DNA of 64,000 nucleotides, from assembly GCA_000497835.1 (NCBI GenBank), contig KI547170.1, positions 1-64,000 of the forward strand, in the 5' to 3' direction. Origin of the DNA: a gamma proteobacterium L18 (lineage in GTDB: Bacteria; Pseudomonadota; Gammaproteobacteria; Pseudomonadales; Pseudomonadaceae). Made by a program: the position numbers and the translations under genes. This document shows positions 46,210-60,543 of the stretch, in pieces. Under the pieces are notes generated by a model. That model saw only the letters and a list, made by a program, of their open reading frames with translations, had not been told where the DNA came from and did no database searches. Numbering within the stretch: the first letter of the stretch is position 1; every line of letters begins with the position of its first letter.

Positions 46210-47202
46210 TCAGCCTAGAACAATCTGATTCTTGCCCTGCCGCTTGGCCTGGTACATCGCCGCATCTGCCCGCGCAAACAGGGTATCGAGCAACTCATCC
46301 CCCTCGGTCAGCCCCGTCAACCCCTGGCTGACCGTCACCCCGTACACTTCGCCTTCATGGTTGAAGCTCAACCGCTGAATCTCACGCTGCAACCGCTCGG
46401 CAATCTGCCGCGCCACTTCCGGCGTGCAACCGGGGAACACCGCCGCAAACTCTTCACCACCAATGCGCCCGAACAGATCGCCCCGGCGCAACACCGAACG
46501 GCCCGTTTCGGCAATGCGTTGCAGCACCACGTCACCTTCCTGGTGCCCGTAGGTGTCGTTGATCACCTTGAAGTCATCGATATCAAGCAACAAGAACGAG
46601 AAGTTCGAGCTTTGCAGGCGCGCCTGTTCGAATTCACGGTGGGCGCACTCGAAGAAGTGCCGACGGTTGCTGCTCTGGGTCAGCACGTCGATGGTCGCCA
46701 ACCGTTGCAGCTCACTTTCCAGGTGTTTCTTCTCGGTGATGTCTTCGGCAATGCCGACCACGATCACGCGCTGGTCTGGGCTGGTCTGCTGGTTGATAAA
46801 GCACTTGTCGCTGAGCCAGCGCACCTGGCCATCGGCGCTGATGATGCGGTACTCGCGGTCTTCCACGGCGCCTTTTTCCAGCACTTCGGCCAGGCTGCGC
46901 TCGGCATAGTCCAGGTCGTCGGGGTAGATGCTGTCGCGCCATTCGTTGTAGTCGGCCAGCAACAGGCCGGCGGAGCGTCCGAAGATGCGCTCGTAGGCGG
47001 GGCTGACGTAGATCATGCGCTGGGCTTCCCAGTCGAAGGCCCACAACACCGCATTGACGCTGACCAGCAGCGAGCTGAACAGCTGTTCACGTTCACTCAG
47101 CCGTGCCACTTCGCCCTGGGCGTGCATCAGCGCCAGCAGCGTCTCGGCGGCAGCCGGCATGGGGGCAAAGGCAGGTGACTGCGGTAGTTTGTTGACCATC
47201 AT
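46210..47202 (-). CDS. PAS-GGDEF diguanylate cyclase
   Basis: 330-residue soluble protein. A PAS domain (about residues 38-160) includes YVSPAYERIFGRS and IIVVGIAEDIT-like residues before a coiled linker. The GGDEF domain has LLDIDDFKVINDTYGH and an intact active site RIGGEEF. An RxxD inhibitory site (RRGD) lies five residues before it. It is predicted to make cyclic-di-GMP with product inhibition. The ATG at 47202 (or the next at 47199) was chosen; in-frame residues further upstream have no family match. Confidence 0.9.
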   Translation of the reverse strand: MMVNKLPQSPAFAPMPAAAETLLALMHAQGEVARLSEREQLFSSLLVSVNAVLWAFDWEAQRMIYVSPAYERIFGRSAGLLLADYNEWRDSIYPDDLDYAERSLAEVLEKGAVEDREYRIISADGQVRWLSDKCFINQQTSPDQRVIVVGIAEDITEKKHLESELQRLATIDVLTQSSNRRHFFECAHREFEQARLQSSNFSFLLLDIDDFKVINDTYGHQEGDVVLQRIAETGRSVLRRGDLFGRIGGEEFAAVFPGCTPEVARQIAERLQREIQRLSFNHEGEVYGVTVSQGLTGLTEGDELLDTLFARADAAMYQAKRQGKNQIVLG

Positions 47203-47347
47203 CACGAAATCTCGAATGTCACGGGGGCCGGGCCCTGGCGTGCGCACGCGCAAAGTCCCGCCGCGTAGGCGATCACTCGTAGGATTAATAATTTGTAATG
47301 AAGTTCCAAACGGCACGCCCCTTGCGAAAGCGTGCCGATGGACGGCG

Positions 47348-48532
47348 TCAGGCGGTGGCGGGGCGCAGCGAGTAGGTTTTGAGCTGGGCGGCGAAATCGC
47401 GCAGCGACTGGATACCACTGGCTTCGGCTTCGTGAATCCAGTCTTTCATGGCGGCCAGCATATCGTGGCCGTTGGAACTGGTGCGCGCCCAGATCTGTTG
47501 CAGCGCCAGGCGTTTCTCGTAGATCACCTTCAGCGCCTGGCTGTGCTCCAGCATGGTCTGGATGCGCACATGGTGGCGGTCATCCAGCAGGCTGGTTTCC
47601 CGCGACAGCAGGCGCTTGGCCCGGCGGAACTGGTAGCGCACCGAGGCATCGACGCGGGCCAGTTCCTGGGTGACCAGGGGCGCGATCACCAGCTTGCGGT
47701 ACTGAGCCATGATCTGGAAACGGTTGTTGAGGATGGCCATGGCCGTGTCCATGTCCAGATGGCCCTTGCCTTCCACGCGGTGGGCGATGGGCGCGATGCG
47801 CTGCACCTTGGCCAGGCGCAGGAACGACAGGATGCGAATCCACATCCAGCCCATGTCGAACTCCCACTTGCGCACTGACAGCTTGGCCGAGTTGGGGTAA
47901 GTGTGGTGATTGTTGTGCAGCTCTTCGCCGCCAATGATGATGCCCCAGGGCACCAGGTTGGTGGCCGCGTCACGGCACTCGAAGTTACGGTAGCCCACGG
48001 CATGGCCCAGGCCGTTGACCACGCCGGCGGCCCAGAACGGAATCCACATCATCTGGATGGCCCACACGGTCAGGCCGATGGCGCCGAAGCAGGCCAGGTC
48101 GATGCCCAGCATCAGGAACACGCCCAGCAGGCGATAGCGCGAGTACAGGTTGCGCTCGATCCAATCCTCGGGGCAGTTCTTGCCGTAGATGCGCAGGGTC
48201 TCGGCGTTCTGCGCCTCGGCGCGGTACAGCTCGGCGCCACGGCCCAGCACGGTGCCCAGGCCCTTGATCACCGGGCTGTGGGGGTCGTCCACGGTTTCGC
48301 ATTTGGCGTGGTGCTTGCGGTGGATGGCCGTCCACTCGCGGGTGTTCTGCGCCGTGGTCAGCCACAGCCAGAAGCGGAAGAAGTGTTTGAGGCCGCCGTT
48401 GAGTTCCAGCGAACGGTGGGAGGAATAGCGGTGAAGGTAGATGGTGACACTGACAATCGTCACATGGGTCATCAACAGGGTGACCGCCACCAGTTGCCAG
48501 GCTGACAGGTCGAGAAAACCGTTGTACCACAT
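47348..48532 (-). CDS. desA: Delta-9 fatty acid desaturase DesA
   Basis: 394-residue membrane desaturase that introduces double bonds into phospholipid acyl chains in an oxygen-dependent way. The three histidine boxes are present: HRYSSHR, HRKHH and HNNHH. The membrane segments lie between boxes in the standard order. The start MWYNGFLDLSAWQ and the length match DesA of pseudomonads as I remember them. An ATG 13 codons upstream would add an unlikely prefix. The gene diverges from the GGDEF-EAL gene, in the same order as around PA0286. Confidence 0.92.
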   Translation of the reverse strand: MWYNGFLDLSAWQLVAVTLLMTHVTIVSVTIYLHRYSSHRSLELNGGLKHFFRFWLWLTTAQNTREWTAIHRKHHAKCETVDDPHSPVIKGLGTVLGRGAELYRAEAQNAETLRIYGKNCPEDWIERNLYSRYRLLGVFLMLGIDLACFGAIGLTVWAIQMMWIPFWAAGVVNGLGHAVGYRNFECRDAATNLVPWGIIIGGEELHNNHHTYPNSAKLSVRKWEFDMGWMWIRILSFLRLAKVQRIAPIAHRVEGKGHLDMDTAMAILNNRFQIMAQYRKLVIAPLVTQELARVDASVRYQFRRAKRLLSRETSLLDDRHHVRIQTMLEHSQALKVIYEKRLALQQIWARTSSNGHDMLAAMKDWIHEAEASGIQSLRDFAAQLKTYSLRPATA

Positions 48533-56503: not shown

Positions 56504-56899
56504 TCAGGACCCGCGGTACGTGCTGAAGCCATAAGGGCTCAGCAACAGTGGAATGTGGTAATGCTGATCCGTCTGCTTCACCTGGAAAATCACCGGTATC
56601 TCCGGGAAGAACGTCTCATGCCCCACGCGCTTGTAGTAATCGCCGGTCTTGAACACCACCCGGTATTCACCCTGCACAAACGTGTGATCGGCCGGGAACA
56701 GTTCGGCAATGCGCCCCTGTTCGTTAGTGGTGCCATGGGCCAGCATCTGCCAGTCCTTGCCCACGTGCTGCTCAAGCGTCACTTCCACGCCCGGCGACGG
56801 CACGCCGTTTTCCAGGTTCAATACGTGCACGCTCAGCGGGTTGGCCGCCATGGCCAGGCTCGACAGGGTGCTTAGGCCCAAGGCCAGCATCAGTTTCAT
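56504..56899 (-). CDS. hiuH: Periplasmic 5-hydroxyisourate hydrolase (transthyretin-like)
   Basis: 131-residue protein with a signal peptide (cleavage after SLAMA). The transthyretin-related fold follows: SVHVLNLENGVPSPGVEV with catalytic His, an RIAEL-type strand, PEIPVIFQV and the diagnostic C terminus ending YRGS. It hydrolyses 5-hydroxyisourate made from urate. The periplasmic version is the YedX/HiuH type. The ATG at 56899 starts the signal peptide. The gene shares an operon with the downstream-oriented HbpS-like gene and lies next to an HprRS-like system, as in E. coli. Confidence 0.9.
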   Translation of the reverse strand: MKLMLALGLSTLSSLAMAANPLSVHVLNLENGVPSPGVEVTLEQHVGKDWQMLAHGTTNEQGRIAELFPADHTFVQGEYRVVFKTGDYYKRVGHETFFPEIPVIFQVKQTDQHYHIPLLLSPYGFSTYRGS

Positions 56900-56910
56900 C
56901 GGTAGTTCCC

Positions 56911-57378
56911 TCAAGGGTGAATGGCCAGGCCCAGGGCACTGGCGGCAGTGGTTGCACATTGTTCGTCCTGCTCTGCGCCACCGGCCCCGGCCACGCCCAG
57001 GGCGCCCACCAGTTCGCGGCCTTCGAACAGCGGGATGCCGCCGCCCAGCAACAGCAGTTCGGGCAGGGTGTTGAGGTTGGCGGCCTCGGGGTTGTTGCGC
57101 GCCCGCTCGGCGAACAGCCGGGTCGGCGTCTTGCTGGACAGCGCGGTGTAGGCCTTGCGGCGCGCTGCGTCGGCGTTATGCGGGCCTACGCCGTCGGCGC
57201 GCTGGGCCAGGATCGGGTTGCCGCCGCGGTCCAGTACCGCGATGGCTGCGCGGCAGGGCGCTGCGTCCACCAGGCGGCGGGCGCTGGCCAGGTCCAGTTC
57301 CGGATGTTGCGGCAGGCCGGCCTGGGCCTGCACGGCGGCCAGGGTGGCGGCGCAGAACAGCAGGGGTTTGAGCGGCAT
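56911..57378 (-). CDS. Exported GlcG/HbpS-like protein (DUF336)
   Basis: 155-residue protein with a signal peptide (cleavage near VQAQA). The GlcG/HbpS fold follows: AIAVLDRGGNPILAQRADG, ARRKAYTALSSKTPT and LLLLGGGIPLF with GALGVAGAGGAEQDEQCA at the C-terminal part. HbpS proteins bind haem or sense redox stress outside the membrane, and GlcG function is unclear. It is separated from hiuH by 11 bases and is the first gene after the HprR-type box. Its likely role is in periplasmic oxidative stress. Confidence 0.82.
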   Translation of the reverse strand: MPLKPLLFCAATLAAVQAQAGLPQHPELDLASARRLVDAAPCRAAIAVLDRGGNPILAQRADGVGPHNADAARRKAYTALSSKTPTRLFAERARNNPEAANLNTLPELLLLGGGIPLFEGRELVGALGVAGAGGAEQDEQCATTAASALGLAIHP

Positions 57379-57444
57379 GGCAGGGCTCCTGTAGATAAGT
57401 GCCGCCACCTTAACCAGGCCCTGCCTGCAGAAAACCGTCGCCCG

Positions 57445-57462
57445 GATTACAACTTTGTAATG
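57445..57462. promoter_or_regulatory. HprR/CusR-type regulator box in divergent promoter
   Basis: On the minus strand the site reads CATTACAAAGTTGTAATC, a perfect ATTACA-ACTT-TGTAAT inverted repeat apart from the outermost base. It closely matches the CATTACAA-NN-TTGTAAT type of element that I recall for HprR (YedW) and relatives. It lies between the exported hbpS-hiuH pair and the response-regulator gene, where it can control both directions. Confidence 0.72.
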
Positions 57463-57514
57463 GGCAAGCGCCGCGTACAGGCCTAGCCTATGCGCAGCTC
57501 AATCGAGGTGTGCG

Positions 57515-58189
57515 ATGCATTTGCTGGTGGTGGAAGACGAAGCCAAGACCGCCCGGTTCCTGGCCAAGGGCCTGGAAGAATCGGGGTTCAGCGTGGACGT
57601 GGCGCTCAACGGCCTGGACGGGCGGCATTACATCGAGGAACAGGCCTACGACCTGGTCATCCTCGACGTGATGCTGCCCGGCCTCAATGGCTGGCAGTTG
57701 CTGAAACTGATCCGCCAGCGCGGCGACACCCCGGTGCTGTTCCTCACCGCCAAGGATGCCGTCGAGGACCGCGTGCGCGGCCTGGAACTGGGCGCCGATG
57801 ATTACCTGCTCAAGCCCTTCGCCTTCGTCGAACTGCTGGCGCGGGTGCGTACCCTGCTGCGTCGCGGCCCTACCCGCGAGGTGGAGCACTACCGCATCGC
57901 CGACCTGGAAGTGGACGTGCTGCGCCGCCGGGTCAGCCGTGGCGGCCAGCGCATTGCCCTGACCAACAAGGAATTCGCCCTGCTGCAACTGCTGGCCAGC
58001 CGCCGTGGCGAGGTGCTGTCGCGCACCCTGATCGCCTCTCAGGTGTGGAACCTGAACTTTGACAGCGACACCAACATGGTCGAAGTGGCCGTGCGCCGAC
58101 TGCGCGCCAAGGTCGACGACCCGTTTATGCCCAAGCTGATCCACACCGTGCGCGGCGTGGGCTATCAGCTGGAGGCGCCTGATGAGTGA
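57515..58189 (+). CDS. hprR: OmpR-family response regulator, HprR-like
   Basis: 224-residue regulator. The receiver domain (1-115) has acidic EDE at 7-9, phosphoacceptor Asp 51 in [10 protein letters not shown] and the Lys in LLKPFAF. The winged-helix domain (about 130-220) has [22 protein letters not shown] and the [14 protein letters not shown] recognition region with [11 protein letters not shown]. The subfamily is the CusR/CopR/HprR (heavy-metal or oxidant) group. Neighbouring hiuH and the box upstream favour HprR. It overlaps the kinase gene by 8 bases. Confidence 0.87.
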
Positions 58190-59591
58190 AATTGCCCGGG
58201 GGCCGTCGCTGGCCTGGCGGCTTGCCTTGGCCTTCGCCGCGGTGTGCGCTCTGGTGCTGAGCGTGGCCGGGGTGTTTCTGTATCGCAGCCTTGAATCGGA
58301 GCTGGTGTACCGCGACGACCAGGCCTTGCTCGGCCGCCTGGAACAGGTGCGGGCCCTGCTGCAGGACAGCGACAGCCTCGACGCCCTGCAACAGCGCCCG
58401 CGCCTGTACCAGAACATGCTCGGCAATCAGGAAAGCCTGCTGTTGGTCAATCGCGCCGACGGTACCGCGGTGATCGCCATCAATCCACGTCGGCAGAAGG
58501 TGCCCCCGGTGGCCGCCATCCCCGAGCAGCGCAGCCCGCAGCCCACGGATATCCAACGCTCTGACTCGCTTCTGCTGCTCGCCGGTGCGGCCCAAGGGCC
58601 GCGCGGCGAAGCGCTAACGGTGATGGTCGGCAAGCATCTGGCCGAGCGCGAGGCCATGTTGGCCAGCTATCGATTGCGGATATACCTGGCGGTAGGGCTG
58701 GGCGCGCTGCTGGCCTTCGCCGTGGGCCTGCTGTTGCTGCGCCGGGCCTTGCTGCCACTGCGTCACATGACCGAGACCGTGGCCGCCATCGACCTGCGCA
58801 GCCTGGACCGACGCCTGCAATTGCAGGCCATCCCCCGCGAGCTGCACGAGCCGGTGGTGGCCCTGAACGGCATGCTGGCGCGCCTCAATGACAGCTTCGA
58901 GCGCTTGTCGCAGTTTTCCGCCGACCTGGCCCACGAGATTCGCACGCCGTTGCACAACCTGCTGGGCAGCAATGGCCTGGCGCTGAACCAGCCGCGCAGC
59001 GTCGAGGAGTACCAGGAGGTGCTGGCTTCCAACCTGGAAGAATTCGAGCGCCTGAACCGCATGATCGAAAACCTGCTGTTCCTGGCCCGCGCCGATCACG
59101 GCGAGCGCCTGTTGAACCTGCAAGCGGTCGACTTGCACGCCTTGGGCGATGATTTGTGCGGTTATTTCGAAGCCCTGGCCGAAGACCGTGAACTGCGCCT
59201 GGACAACCAGTTGCACGGCACGCTGCAGGCCGATTTGCAGTTGCTGCAACGGGCCCTGGCCAACCTGCTGGCCAACGCGGTGCGCCATGCCACGCCGGGC
59301 AGCACCATCAGCCTGACGGTAGAGGGCAGCAGCCTGTGCGTTGCCAACCAGGGCGAGCCCATTGCCGCGCAGCATCTGGCGCGATTGTTCGATCGGTTTT
59401 TCCGCATCGATCCGTCTCGCGCAGAACCGGGTGACTCGGGCGGCCTGGGCCTGGCCATCGTGCGTTCGATCATGCAGTTGCATGGCGGCCAGGTCAGCGT
59501 CAGCAGTGACGAACAAGCCACGGTGTTCCGGCTGGCGTTCACACCATCCGGTCGCGGAACTGCCCCGGGGACAGCCCCGTCCAGCGTTTGA
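58182..59591 (+). CDS. hprS: Heavy-metal/HprS-type sensor histidine kinase
   Basis: 469-residue kinase. The first membrane segment lies at about 12-34. A periplasmic sensor (about 35-165) has no His/Met-rich copper motif, which argues against CusS-type copper sensing. The second segment (about 167-187) is followed by HAMP, then HisKA with His 251 in [12 protein letters not shown]. The HATPase domain has N-box [12 protein letters not shown] and G-box [12 protein letters not shown]. The cognate regulator is just upstream. The last 53 bases overlap the end of the convergent AraC gene. Confidence 0.88.
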
Positions 59592-60543
59592 ACGCGCGGT
59601 TGAAGCTGCTGGCGTCGGCAAACCCCAGCCGAAAGCCGATCTCGCCCAGCGATACCTCGACGTCGCGCAGGTAGGCCAGCGCCAGGTTCTGCCGGCACTG
59701 GTCCAGCAGCGCGTCATAGCGGCAGCCTTCGTCGGCCAGGTGGCGTTGCAGGCTGCGCAGGCTCAGGTGCATGGACTCGGCAATCTGGTCGGCCGAGGGC
59801 ACACCCTGGGGCAGGTGGTGTTCGATGGCGTTGCGCACGCGGCGCTCCCAGGTCAGTGGGTGCAGTAGCTCCAGGGTGCGGTTGAGCACGGCTTCGTTGT
59901 GTTCGGCCAGCTCCGGGTTGGCGTCGTCCAGGTGGCACTCGAAATCGGCACAGGCAAATTCCAGCCCGTTGTACGGCGCGTTGAAATGCAGGGGGGCGCG
60001 AAACACGGTGTGCCAGGGCGTGGGGTCTACCGGTGGCGGCCGCGTCAGCCACACGCCCAGCGGCGCATAGTCCCGGCCCAGGCGGTTGCGGCAAGTGCGC
60101 ACGTAGATCGCCGCAAAGGCATCGATGGCTTCCGGCGCCGGGGCGGGGGCGCCTTCGGGGATTTCCAGGCGGAACACGTAGCGGCCGTTCTCCCGGCTCA
60201 GGTGCGGCACTACGGCATCGCTGACCACCTGGTGATATCGCACGATGCGCTCGAACACTTCGCGCAAGTTCTCGCTGGCCACCAACGCGTAGCCCAGGGC
60301 GTGGAAGGTGGTGGGGCTGACGTAGCGCGACACCCGCAGGCCGATGGCCGGGTCGCCGCTGGCCTGCACCGCCAACTGCCACAGGCGCGTGGTGGCCGAC
60401 AACGGGTAGCGGGCCTTGGGGTCGTCCATGTGCTGCAGGTCCAGTCCGGCTTTTTCGCACAGCGCAGCGCTGTCCAGGCCCAGTGCGTCGAGTTGTTTGC
60501 GCAAGGCTCGGGTCCAGCTGGCAAGCGTGGTCGGTTCAGTCAT
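59539..60543 (-). CDS. AraC-family regulator (OruR/ArgR-like, DUF4880-free long form)
   Basis: 334-residue regulator with an N-terminal Arabinose_bd-type domain (about 20-210, with YPLSATTRLWQLAVQASGDP) and a C-terminal double helix-turn-helix (about 235-330). The latter shows SLRSLQRHLADEG and [22 protein letters not shown] followed by [12 protein letters not shown]. It diverges from the desaturase gene at 60645 across 101 bases and probably activates it in response to a lipid or related ligand. The ligand is not predictable from the sequence. Its 3' end overlaps the sensor kinase gene tail to tail. Confidence 0.88.
   Translation of the reverse strand: MTEPTTLASWTRALRKQLDALGLDSAALCEKAGLDLQHMDDPKARYPLSATTRLWQLAVQASGDPAIGLRVSRYVSPTTFHALGYALVASENLREVFERIVRYHQVVSDAVVPHLSRENGRYVFRLEIPEGAPAPAPEAIDAFAAIYVRTCRNRLGRDYAPLGVWLTRPPPVDPTPWHTVFRAPLHFNAPYNGLEFACADFECHLDDANPELAEHNEAVLNRTLELLHPLTWERRVRNAIEHHLPQGVPSADQIAESMHLSLRSLQRHLADEGCRYDALLDQCRQNLALAYLRDVEVSLGEIGFRLGFADASSFNRAFKRWTGLSPGQFRDRMV

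Follow-up and report, generated by a model that had tools for sequence, protein, structure and literature searches.

Organization of the locus

A divergent gene arrangement was examined in a 64,000-nucleotide stretch of contig KI547170.1 (positions 1 to 64,000, forward strand; the window) from the gamma proteobacterium L18. Here, a single spacer lies between an operon encoding an HbpS-like protein and a HiuH-like 5-hydroxyisourate hydrolase (hbpS-hiuH, minus strand) and a divergent response regulator and sensor kinase pair (plus strand), an arrangement referred to below as the module. The locus probably encodes an HprSR-type envelope-oxidant switch that drives the divergent hbpS-hiuH operon. 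HprSR is known from E. coli as a switch for the periplasmic repair of bleach-oxidized proteins, and we know of no settled reason why it also drives a hydroxyisourate hydrolase. The following features were assigned:

56504..56899, minus strand: HiuH-like 5-hydroxyisourate hydrolase, 131 amino acids, probably exported (TIGR02962, PF00576, structure match, N-terminus)
56911..57378, minus strand: HbpS-like (GlcG/HbpS, PF03928) protein, 155 amino acids, probably exported (PF03928, structure matches)
57407..57412, minus strand: -10-like element TAAGGT of the putative hbpS-hiuH promoter, 32 bp after the 18-mer box (conserved spacing)
57445..57462, minus strand: candidate operator palindrome CATTACAAAGTTGTAATC (exact sequence match)
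57484..57489, plus strand: possible -10 element TAGCCT of the regulator-kinase operon, 21 bp from the box (sequence reading; its complement AGGCTA is largely conserved in a 125-locus consensus)
57515..58189, plus strand: response regulator of the OmpR family, HprR/CusR type, 224 amino acids (TIGR01387, NF007346, NF008567)
58182..59591, plus strand: HprS-type sensor kinase, 469 amino acids (TIGR01386, tree, alignments)

The open reading frames of the regulator and the kinase overlap, and the HbpS-like gene is situated 11 bp upstream of hiuH. The HiuH protein scored 142.1 bits against TIGR02962 (cut-off 87.45), 129.5 bits against PF00576, and 141.9 bits against the E. coli-type model NF011610, which is below the cut-off of 217 for that model. 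Its nearest solved structure is 2igl (E 1.4e-35), it is 51% identical to E. coli HiuH, and it ends in YRGS, of which Y128, R129, and G130 are common to at least 99% of 105 module proteins and E. coli HiuH. The protein is probably exported, as judged from its hydrophobic N-terminal sequence alone. The preliminary description of this DNA had placed an exported GlcG/HbpS-like gene in the target operon, and the family assignment is borne out by a score of 101.6 bits against PF03928 (cut-off 25); this protein, too, is probably exported. It had also stated that msrPQ genes are missing from the locus. We likewise found no relatives of MsrP or MsrQ there, while one MsrP, 56% identical to that of E. 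coli, is encoded far off in the assembly (C15:118708). Separately, a weak MsrP-like match (30%) adjoins another OmpR-type regulator at G000:C9:244329-246543 (L341).

Affiliation of the sensor kinase

The kinase scored 444.4 bits against TIGR01386 and carries Met79 and Met159 at the positions of the HprS sensing methionines, which we take to be Met72 and Met153. Among 40 module kinases, the Met72 column holds Met in 40/40 and the Met153 column in 37/40, and a repeat count gave the same figures. The columns of the CusS histidines His42 and His176 are occupied by Glu in 40/40 and by Arg in 39/40 (His in 1/40), in agreement with the earlier statement that the sensor region has no copper-type motif. 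According to the available passages of PMC7763554, two invariant histidines form the probable copper-sensing site of CopS/CusS. For HprS, the available part of a review (PMC10151825) assigns sensing to two methionines of the loop and signal transmission to a membrane cysteine.

For comparison, a control set of 84 other TIGR01386 kinases was used, 54 of which have His in each of the copper columns. Met was present in the Met72 column of nine controls, in the Met153 column of five, and in both columns of four (L217, L258, L259, and L271); L217 is in fact a member of the module (G459), and the other three are related HprS-like types. A 50-row kinase tree was divided by a branch with 100/100 support into one side with 17 module kinases, the three HprS of E. 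coli, Pantoea, and Duffyella, and a further five kinases, of which four are Met-type kinases from Pseudomonas, and another side with 14 copper-type kinases and 11 others. Together with the methionine positions, this grouping upholds the assignment of the kinase as HprS-like in the preliminary description. The predicted model of the sensor region had a mean predicted local distance difference test score (pLDDT) of 89.8; a fold search with it was uninformative, as a WalK model was the only match at E ≤ 0.001 and the others were weak. No copper-histidine kinase of the TIGR01386 subfamily was detected in the assembly at the thresholds used.

Other related systems were encountered during this comparison. 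The only other regulator and kinase pair reported above the TIGR01386/TIGR01387 cut-offs in the assembly, at G000:C4:421334-423353 (L103, L216), has neither copper histidine, and the open reading frames beside it were taken by eye for genes of RND efflux. Pseudomonas also has a second HprS-like two-component system of the Met type (L276-L278, L280-L285, L349, L362), divergent from genes for a 200-amino-acid protein, a b561-type cytochrome, and a molybdoenzyme 29-34% identical to MsrP; the families of these neighbors were tested in L276 only, and their relatives were located by tblastn. Kinases of this type have Met in the Met72 column in 11/11 and in the Met153 column in 10/11, and a TGACA-N4-TGTCA palindrome is visible upstream of several of these systems. 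The irlR region of P. aeruginosa is presumably similar to this second system.

Operator box and promoter spacing

The palindrome at 57445-57462 (minus strand) shares 16 of its 18 bases with the HprR/CusR box of E. coli, so the near identity to the E. coli HprR element claimed earlier for the box in the divergent promoter was recovered. The E. coli hprR-hiuH spacer carries CATTACAAAATTGTAATG, which is described as a CusR and HprR box in the passages available of PMC9302797, and those of PMC8249747 state that HprR and CusR recognize the same sequence with different affinities. Because both regulators recognize it, the box names a class and not the regulator. On the same grounds (PMC8249747, PMC9302797, both as far as their accessible passages go), the box was ruled out as proof of HprR, and its earlier use as an HprR mark was not supported.

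When the window was scanned with up to three mismatches, one further site was detected at 47283 (three mismatches), and 100 shuffles yielded none. This relative of the box (47283-47300, minus strand) has one clean half-site and lies within the listed open reading frame 46210-47418, possibly upstream of the real start of that frame, in which a GGEEF-like motif was seen by eye. In the whole assembly, ATTACAAARTTGTAAT occurs with zero or one mismatch only at 57445-57462 and with two mismatches at one site (C5:401186). The wider pattern ATKAC-N6-GTMAT has 17 sites in the assembly, and its ATTACA-N4-TGTAAT form is present only at 57445-57462. No T(T/G)AC-N6-GT(A/C)A palindrome was found in the 4.9 kb surrounding the distant msrP gene. 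The genome scan suggested earlier for additional copies of the box, for instance near msrP, yielded only the single two-mismatch site.

Regarding conservation, TTAC-N6-GTAA was present in 125 of the 130 loci with a regulator match and an HbpS-like gene (of 132 examined). On the HbpS side, a -10-like element of the form.A...T is located at +32 from the box in 102/102 loci (51/51, 30/30, and 21/21 in three groups), and it takes the form TA...T in 48, 2, and 21 loci of these groups, respectively; the loci are related to each other, and these counts are not independent. Other offsets between 24 and 43 show.A...T in at most three loci each, except +41 (15/51). The same 32 bp spacing was counted by hand in E. 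coli upstream of hiuH (TATCCT) and cusC (TAAAGT), and a -10-like TATAAC is situated at +32 in 5/5 hprR loci of Enterobacterales (two Pantoea, two Duffyella, and one Chimaeribacter). Between the box and the -10-like element, the consensus of the main group shows, by eye, TGACG-like half-sites about 11 bp apart. The +32 pattern is what a conserved activator-dependent promoter would be expected to look like.

Distribution in Pseudomonas and loss of the kinase

A search for the HbpS-like protein in 298 Pseudomonas genomes gave some match in 287. Close matches, defined by our own cut of E ≤ 8.9e-38, were present in 102 genomes, including that of the window, and the remaining 196 lacked a close HbpS-like gene; the module is therefore patchy. 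The HiuH gene follows the HbpS-like gene in 102/102 loci, and an intact regulator and kinase were found in 81 of them, with ATTAC-N6-GTAAT kept in 81/81. An MsrP/Q match of any kind was present at only one of the 102 loci (L335). When named genomes were scanned with the sensor region of the kinase, the best 80 of 174 relatives (79 from Pseudomonas and one from Stutzerimonas) had divergent HbpS-like and HiuH genes in 80/80 cases and an MsrP/MsrQ match in 0/80. A scan of the whole class gave a sensor match (E ≤ 1e-6) in 9/369 genomes, and the module was also found in a different genus within the family and in a different family within the order (G459, G569). In L190 (G569), the HbpS-like frame seems to be truncated or frameshifted toward the C-terminal part of the protein.

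The 21 loci of the close set that lack a kinase match showed a truncated regulator in 17 and no regulator in four. The palindrome was kept in 21/21; it has the form ATTAC/GTAAT in four, and in 17 at least one of its half-sites is of the TGACA/TGTCA type. The truncated regulators are single receiver domains of 116-127 amino acids, depending on the start chosen (L053, L055-L059, L068, L069, L289-L291, L293, L294, L296-L298, and L302). The motifs VED, LDVMLPG, FLTT, and LLKPF, which contain the acidic pair, the acceptor Asp, the Thr, and the Lys, were present in 17/17. With a median ratio of nonsynonymous to synonymous substitution rates (dN/dS) of 0.06 over 133 of 136 pairs (dS 0.05-3), purifying selection appears to act on these stand-alone receivers despite the loss of the DNA-binding domain and of the kinase. 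The five truncated regulators placed in the regulator tree group together, and the 21 kinase-less genomes may represent one clade. The gene 3' of the kinase in the window (59539-60543, minus strand), AraC-type by eye, also adjoins the operon in two kinase-less loci (L053, L064).

Another HprS-like sensor was encoded in 21/21 kinase-less genomes; of the 81 kinase-bearing genomes, 50 were searched and 11 had one. In the 13 kinase-less genomes where the second kinase was read, no HbpS-like or HiuH match was found nearby; the box was not scanned there. Takeover of the operon by this other kinase was considered, and no mechanism was drawn from it, given the possible single clade and the lack of HbpS-like and HiuH genes nearby. 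The second kinases in these 13 of 21 genomes belong to a third HprS-like type, which was read in 19 loci (L279, L343-L348, L350-L361); an L,D-transpeptidase gene lies near the kinase in L279 and L359-L361.

Related loci outside Pseudomonas

Among plasmids, HprR relatives (E ≤ 1e-85) were present in 58 records, namely Pantoea (37), Escherichia (17), Duffyella (3), and Chimaeribacter (1). An HbpS-like query from Pantoea (E ≤ 1e-8) matched 80 records from Pantoea (37), Escherichia (31), Riemerella (4), Duffyella (3), Sphingomonas (2), and Chimaeribacter, Acinetobacter, and Ensifer (1 each), and the HbpS-like query from the window had no plasmid match at E 1e-15. In the 19 Pantoea records common to both match lists, the hprR and HbpS-like matches are 553-554 bp apart. 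Two annotated Pantoea hprR loci are divergent from uraH and a heme-binding protein gene, and those of Duffyella (2) and Chimaeribacter (1) from a heme-binding protein gene alone, so that an HbpS-like gene lies beside hprR in 5/5 loci read; msrPQ was annotated at none of them. The expansion proposed in the preliminary description as a feature of Pseudomonas is thus not specific to that genus. In one Duffyella locus (L364), the frame before hbpS ends in PLLLSQYGYSIYRGS, and the Chimaeribacter locus (L367) has a weaker version; in both of these translated loci, a short 3' hiuH remnant lies between hprR and the HbpS-like gene, from which we conclude that hiuH was once there and has mostly been lost. 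The one Escherichia hprR plasmid read carries hiuH-msrPQ and no HbpS-like gene, and in the one Escherichia albertii plasmid locus read, hprR is not annotated within 3.5 kb of the HbpS-like gene; the HbpS-like gene is therefore a recurrent and not an obligatory companion. The Escherichia hprR plasmid, CP099183.1 (L365) in E. coli, is typed as conjugative and bears the whole hprR-kinase-hiuH-msrPQ locus.

When compared to the E. coli HprSR-hiuH-msrPQ system (yedVW), the window locus is alike in the divergent regulator and kinase with HiuH, the box, the -10-like element at +32, and the methionine positions. In contrast, it lacks msrPQ and Cys165, bears an HbpS-like gene before hiuH, and has a regulator below the HprR equivalog cut-off. 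The plasmid hprR locus of Pantoea agglomerans (NZ_CP113086, NZ_CP090208) shares all four components, the divergent layout, and the +32 element, whereas its order is hiuH-hbpS instead of hbpS-hiuH and its box is GATGACAATATGGTCATC, with half-sites TGACA/GGTCA instead of TTACA/TGTAA. The plasmids of Duffyella gerundensis and Chimaeribacter arupi likewise have hprR and a kinase divergent from an HbpS-like gene with the +32 element; they differ in that hiuH is not annotated and persists only as the remnants described above.

The HbpS-like protein

The nearest solved structures of the HbpS-like protein are those of Streptomyces HbpS (4bmw, E 1.9e-17; 3fpv, E 1.2e-16). In the passages available of PMC3754957, HbpS is presented as an exported accessory element of SenS-SenR, with which it forms a three-component redox system. 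The S. reticuli system is thus alike in combining an exported HbpS-type protein with an oxidative-stress two-component system (PMC3754957, same passages), and it differs in organism and operon. The central E78XXE81 iron motif of HbpS is not kept in the window protein, which has Asp and Arg at those columns; in the alignment, Lys83, Asp143, and the C-terminal D/EXXE are conserved in position. Cys42 is present in 105/105 and Cys141 in 104/105 module HbpS-like proteins. The pair was ruled out as a hallmark of the module, since the two cysteines are also found in 6/8 and 8/8 control paralogues, respectively. In the open-access passages of the literature consulted, no link between an HbpS-like protein and HprSR was found. 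Its recurrence beside the switch in some distant bacteria suggests that the HbpS-like partner belongs to the HprSR response and has been overlooked.

Interpretation and alternative explanations

In our best reading, the locus represents HprSR as it occurs in Pseudomonadales, where the set of effectors differs. The gene order, conservation, operator, promoter spacing, kinase affiliation, and methionine positions are read from the sequence, and the inducer, phosphotransfer, DNA binding, promoter activation, export, and the cellular roles of HbpS and HiuH are inferred as follows. Reactive chlorine or peroxide species would oxidize the methionines in the periplasmic loop of the membrane kinase and so generate the signal, and the kinase would then phosphorylate the adjacent OmpR-family regulator. 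The phosphorylated regulator would bind the palindrome and activate the divergent operon from 32 bp upstream of the -10 element, and it probably also controls its own operon. HiuH could clear 5-hydroxyisourate arising from oxidant attack on urate, and the HbpS-like protein may bind, degrade, or sequester periplasmic heme or iron, or serve as a redox-active partner.

Several observations weigh against this reading. The regulator scored 338.8 bits against TIGR01387, above the cut-off, and 308.9 bits against the CusR model NF007346 (equivalog cut-off 420); its 289.7 bits against the HprR model NF008567 are also below the equivalog cut-off (353), and it is therefore filed as HprSR-type and not as an equivalog HprR. 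It is 60% identical to CusR and 52% to HprR, and the regulator tree joins the module sequences (98/96) without separating HprR from the copper regulators, so that placing HprR by this tree failed. The kinase matched the Pfam CusS sensor domain PF21085 weakly (23.5 bits, cut-off 24.1), and within its side of the kinase tree HprS sits on a long branch whose position relative to the module has weak support. Ile replaces Met153 in 3/40 module kinases and Val does so in Chimaeribacter, and in a six-sequence alignment the first Met of the window kinase falls one column off Met72. Met72 alone is not diagnostic, because four copper-type controls with both histidines (L196, L197, L203, and L207) also have Met in that column. 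The HprS membrane cysteine for signal transduction, presumably Cys165, has no counterpart in the module kinases (0/40); since this column holds Ser in the Pantoea, Duffyella, and Chimaeribacter kinases too, the feature fails even across annotated HprR loci. The operon persists in the 21 loci without a kinase match, five other sensor-like loci read from outside the order (L191-L195) have no HbpS-like or HiuH match nearby, and the E. albertii plasmid locus lacks an annotated hprR within 3.5 kb.

Some of these points would fit a copper (or silver) responsive system of the CusRS/CopRS type that happens to control hbpS-hiuH. E. coli CusRS and P. aeruginosa CopRS share the regulator and kinase subfamily, the box class, and the cusC -10 spacing with the window locus; the heavy-metal subfamily cut-offs of TIGR01386 and TIGR01387 are passed, the weak PF21085 match and the higher identity to CusR point the same way, and copper induces E. 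coli hiuH via CusSR according to the accessible passages of PMC9302797. However, both sensor histidines are replaced, the kinase is separated from the copper clade with 100/100 support, and the operon, which consists of the HbpS-like and HiuH genes, has no copper-efflux or copper-binding gene, which makes this explanation unlikely. We regard it as rather unlikely that the kinase uses the HbpS-like protein as an accessory sensor, in the way SenS uses HbpS in Streptomyces, with the operon product feeding back on the switch. Its nearest solved relatives are HbpS, whose three-component system is described in the part of PMC3754957 cited above, and its gene accompanies the kinase in all of the best 80 of 174 sensor relatives and hprR in the five Pantoea, Duffyella, and Chimaeribacter loci, where it is kept in L364 and L367 beside a mere HiuH remnant. 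In contrast, the HbpS-like and HiuH genes persist without the kinase in 21/102 Pseudomonas loci, the E. coli hprSR locus has no annotated HbpS-like gene, the E. albertii gene occurs without hprR in its annotated surroundings, and the central EXXE iron site is not conserved.

A broader version of the accessory-sensor idea appears quite unlikely. It would make the HbpS-like protein an old partner of HprS-type kinases, and the most persistent one, ahead of MsrPQ and HiuH, and part of a three-component periplasmic redox sensor with the methionine-based kinase, taking heme- or iron-derived oxidant signals, perhaps via the conserved Cys pair, in convergence with HbpS-SenS-SenR and with E. coli as a reduced case. 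Since HiuH belongs to an enzyme family of the purine pathway, the operon might instead serve purine or urate catabolism, with a regulator that responds to a purine intermediate and not to an oxidant. This is highly improbable, as a second HiuH in the assembly (C13:23573) sits among open reading frames read by eye as allantoicase-like and purine-permease-like, with no HbpS-like match or TTACA/TGTAA box in its 10 kb, and the kinase in the window shows HprS-type features.

Under the HprSR-type reading, the HbpS-like companion of the switch, found with HiuH in Pseudomonadales and Pantoea, offers a concrete and testable second effector, and it points to urate and heme or iron as possible linked targets of envelope oxidants. 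The kinase-less loci, which keep the palindrome and mostly a stand-alone receiver, represent a natural experiment in regulator decay.

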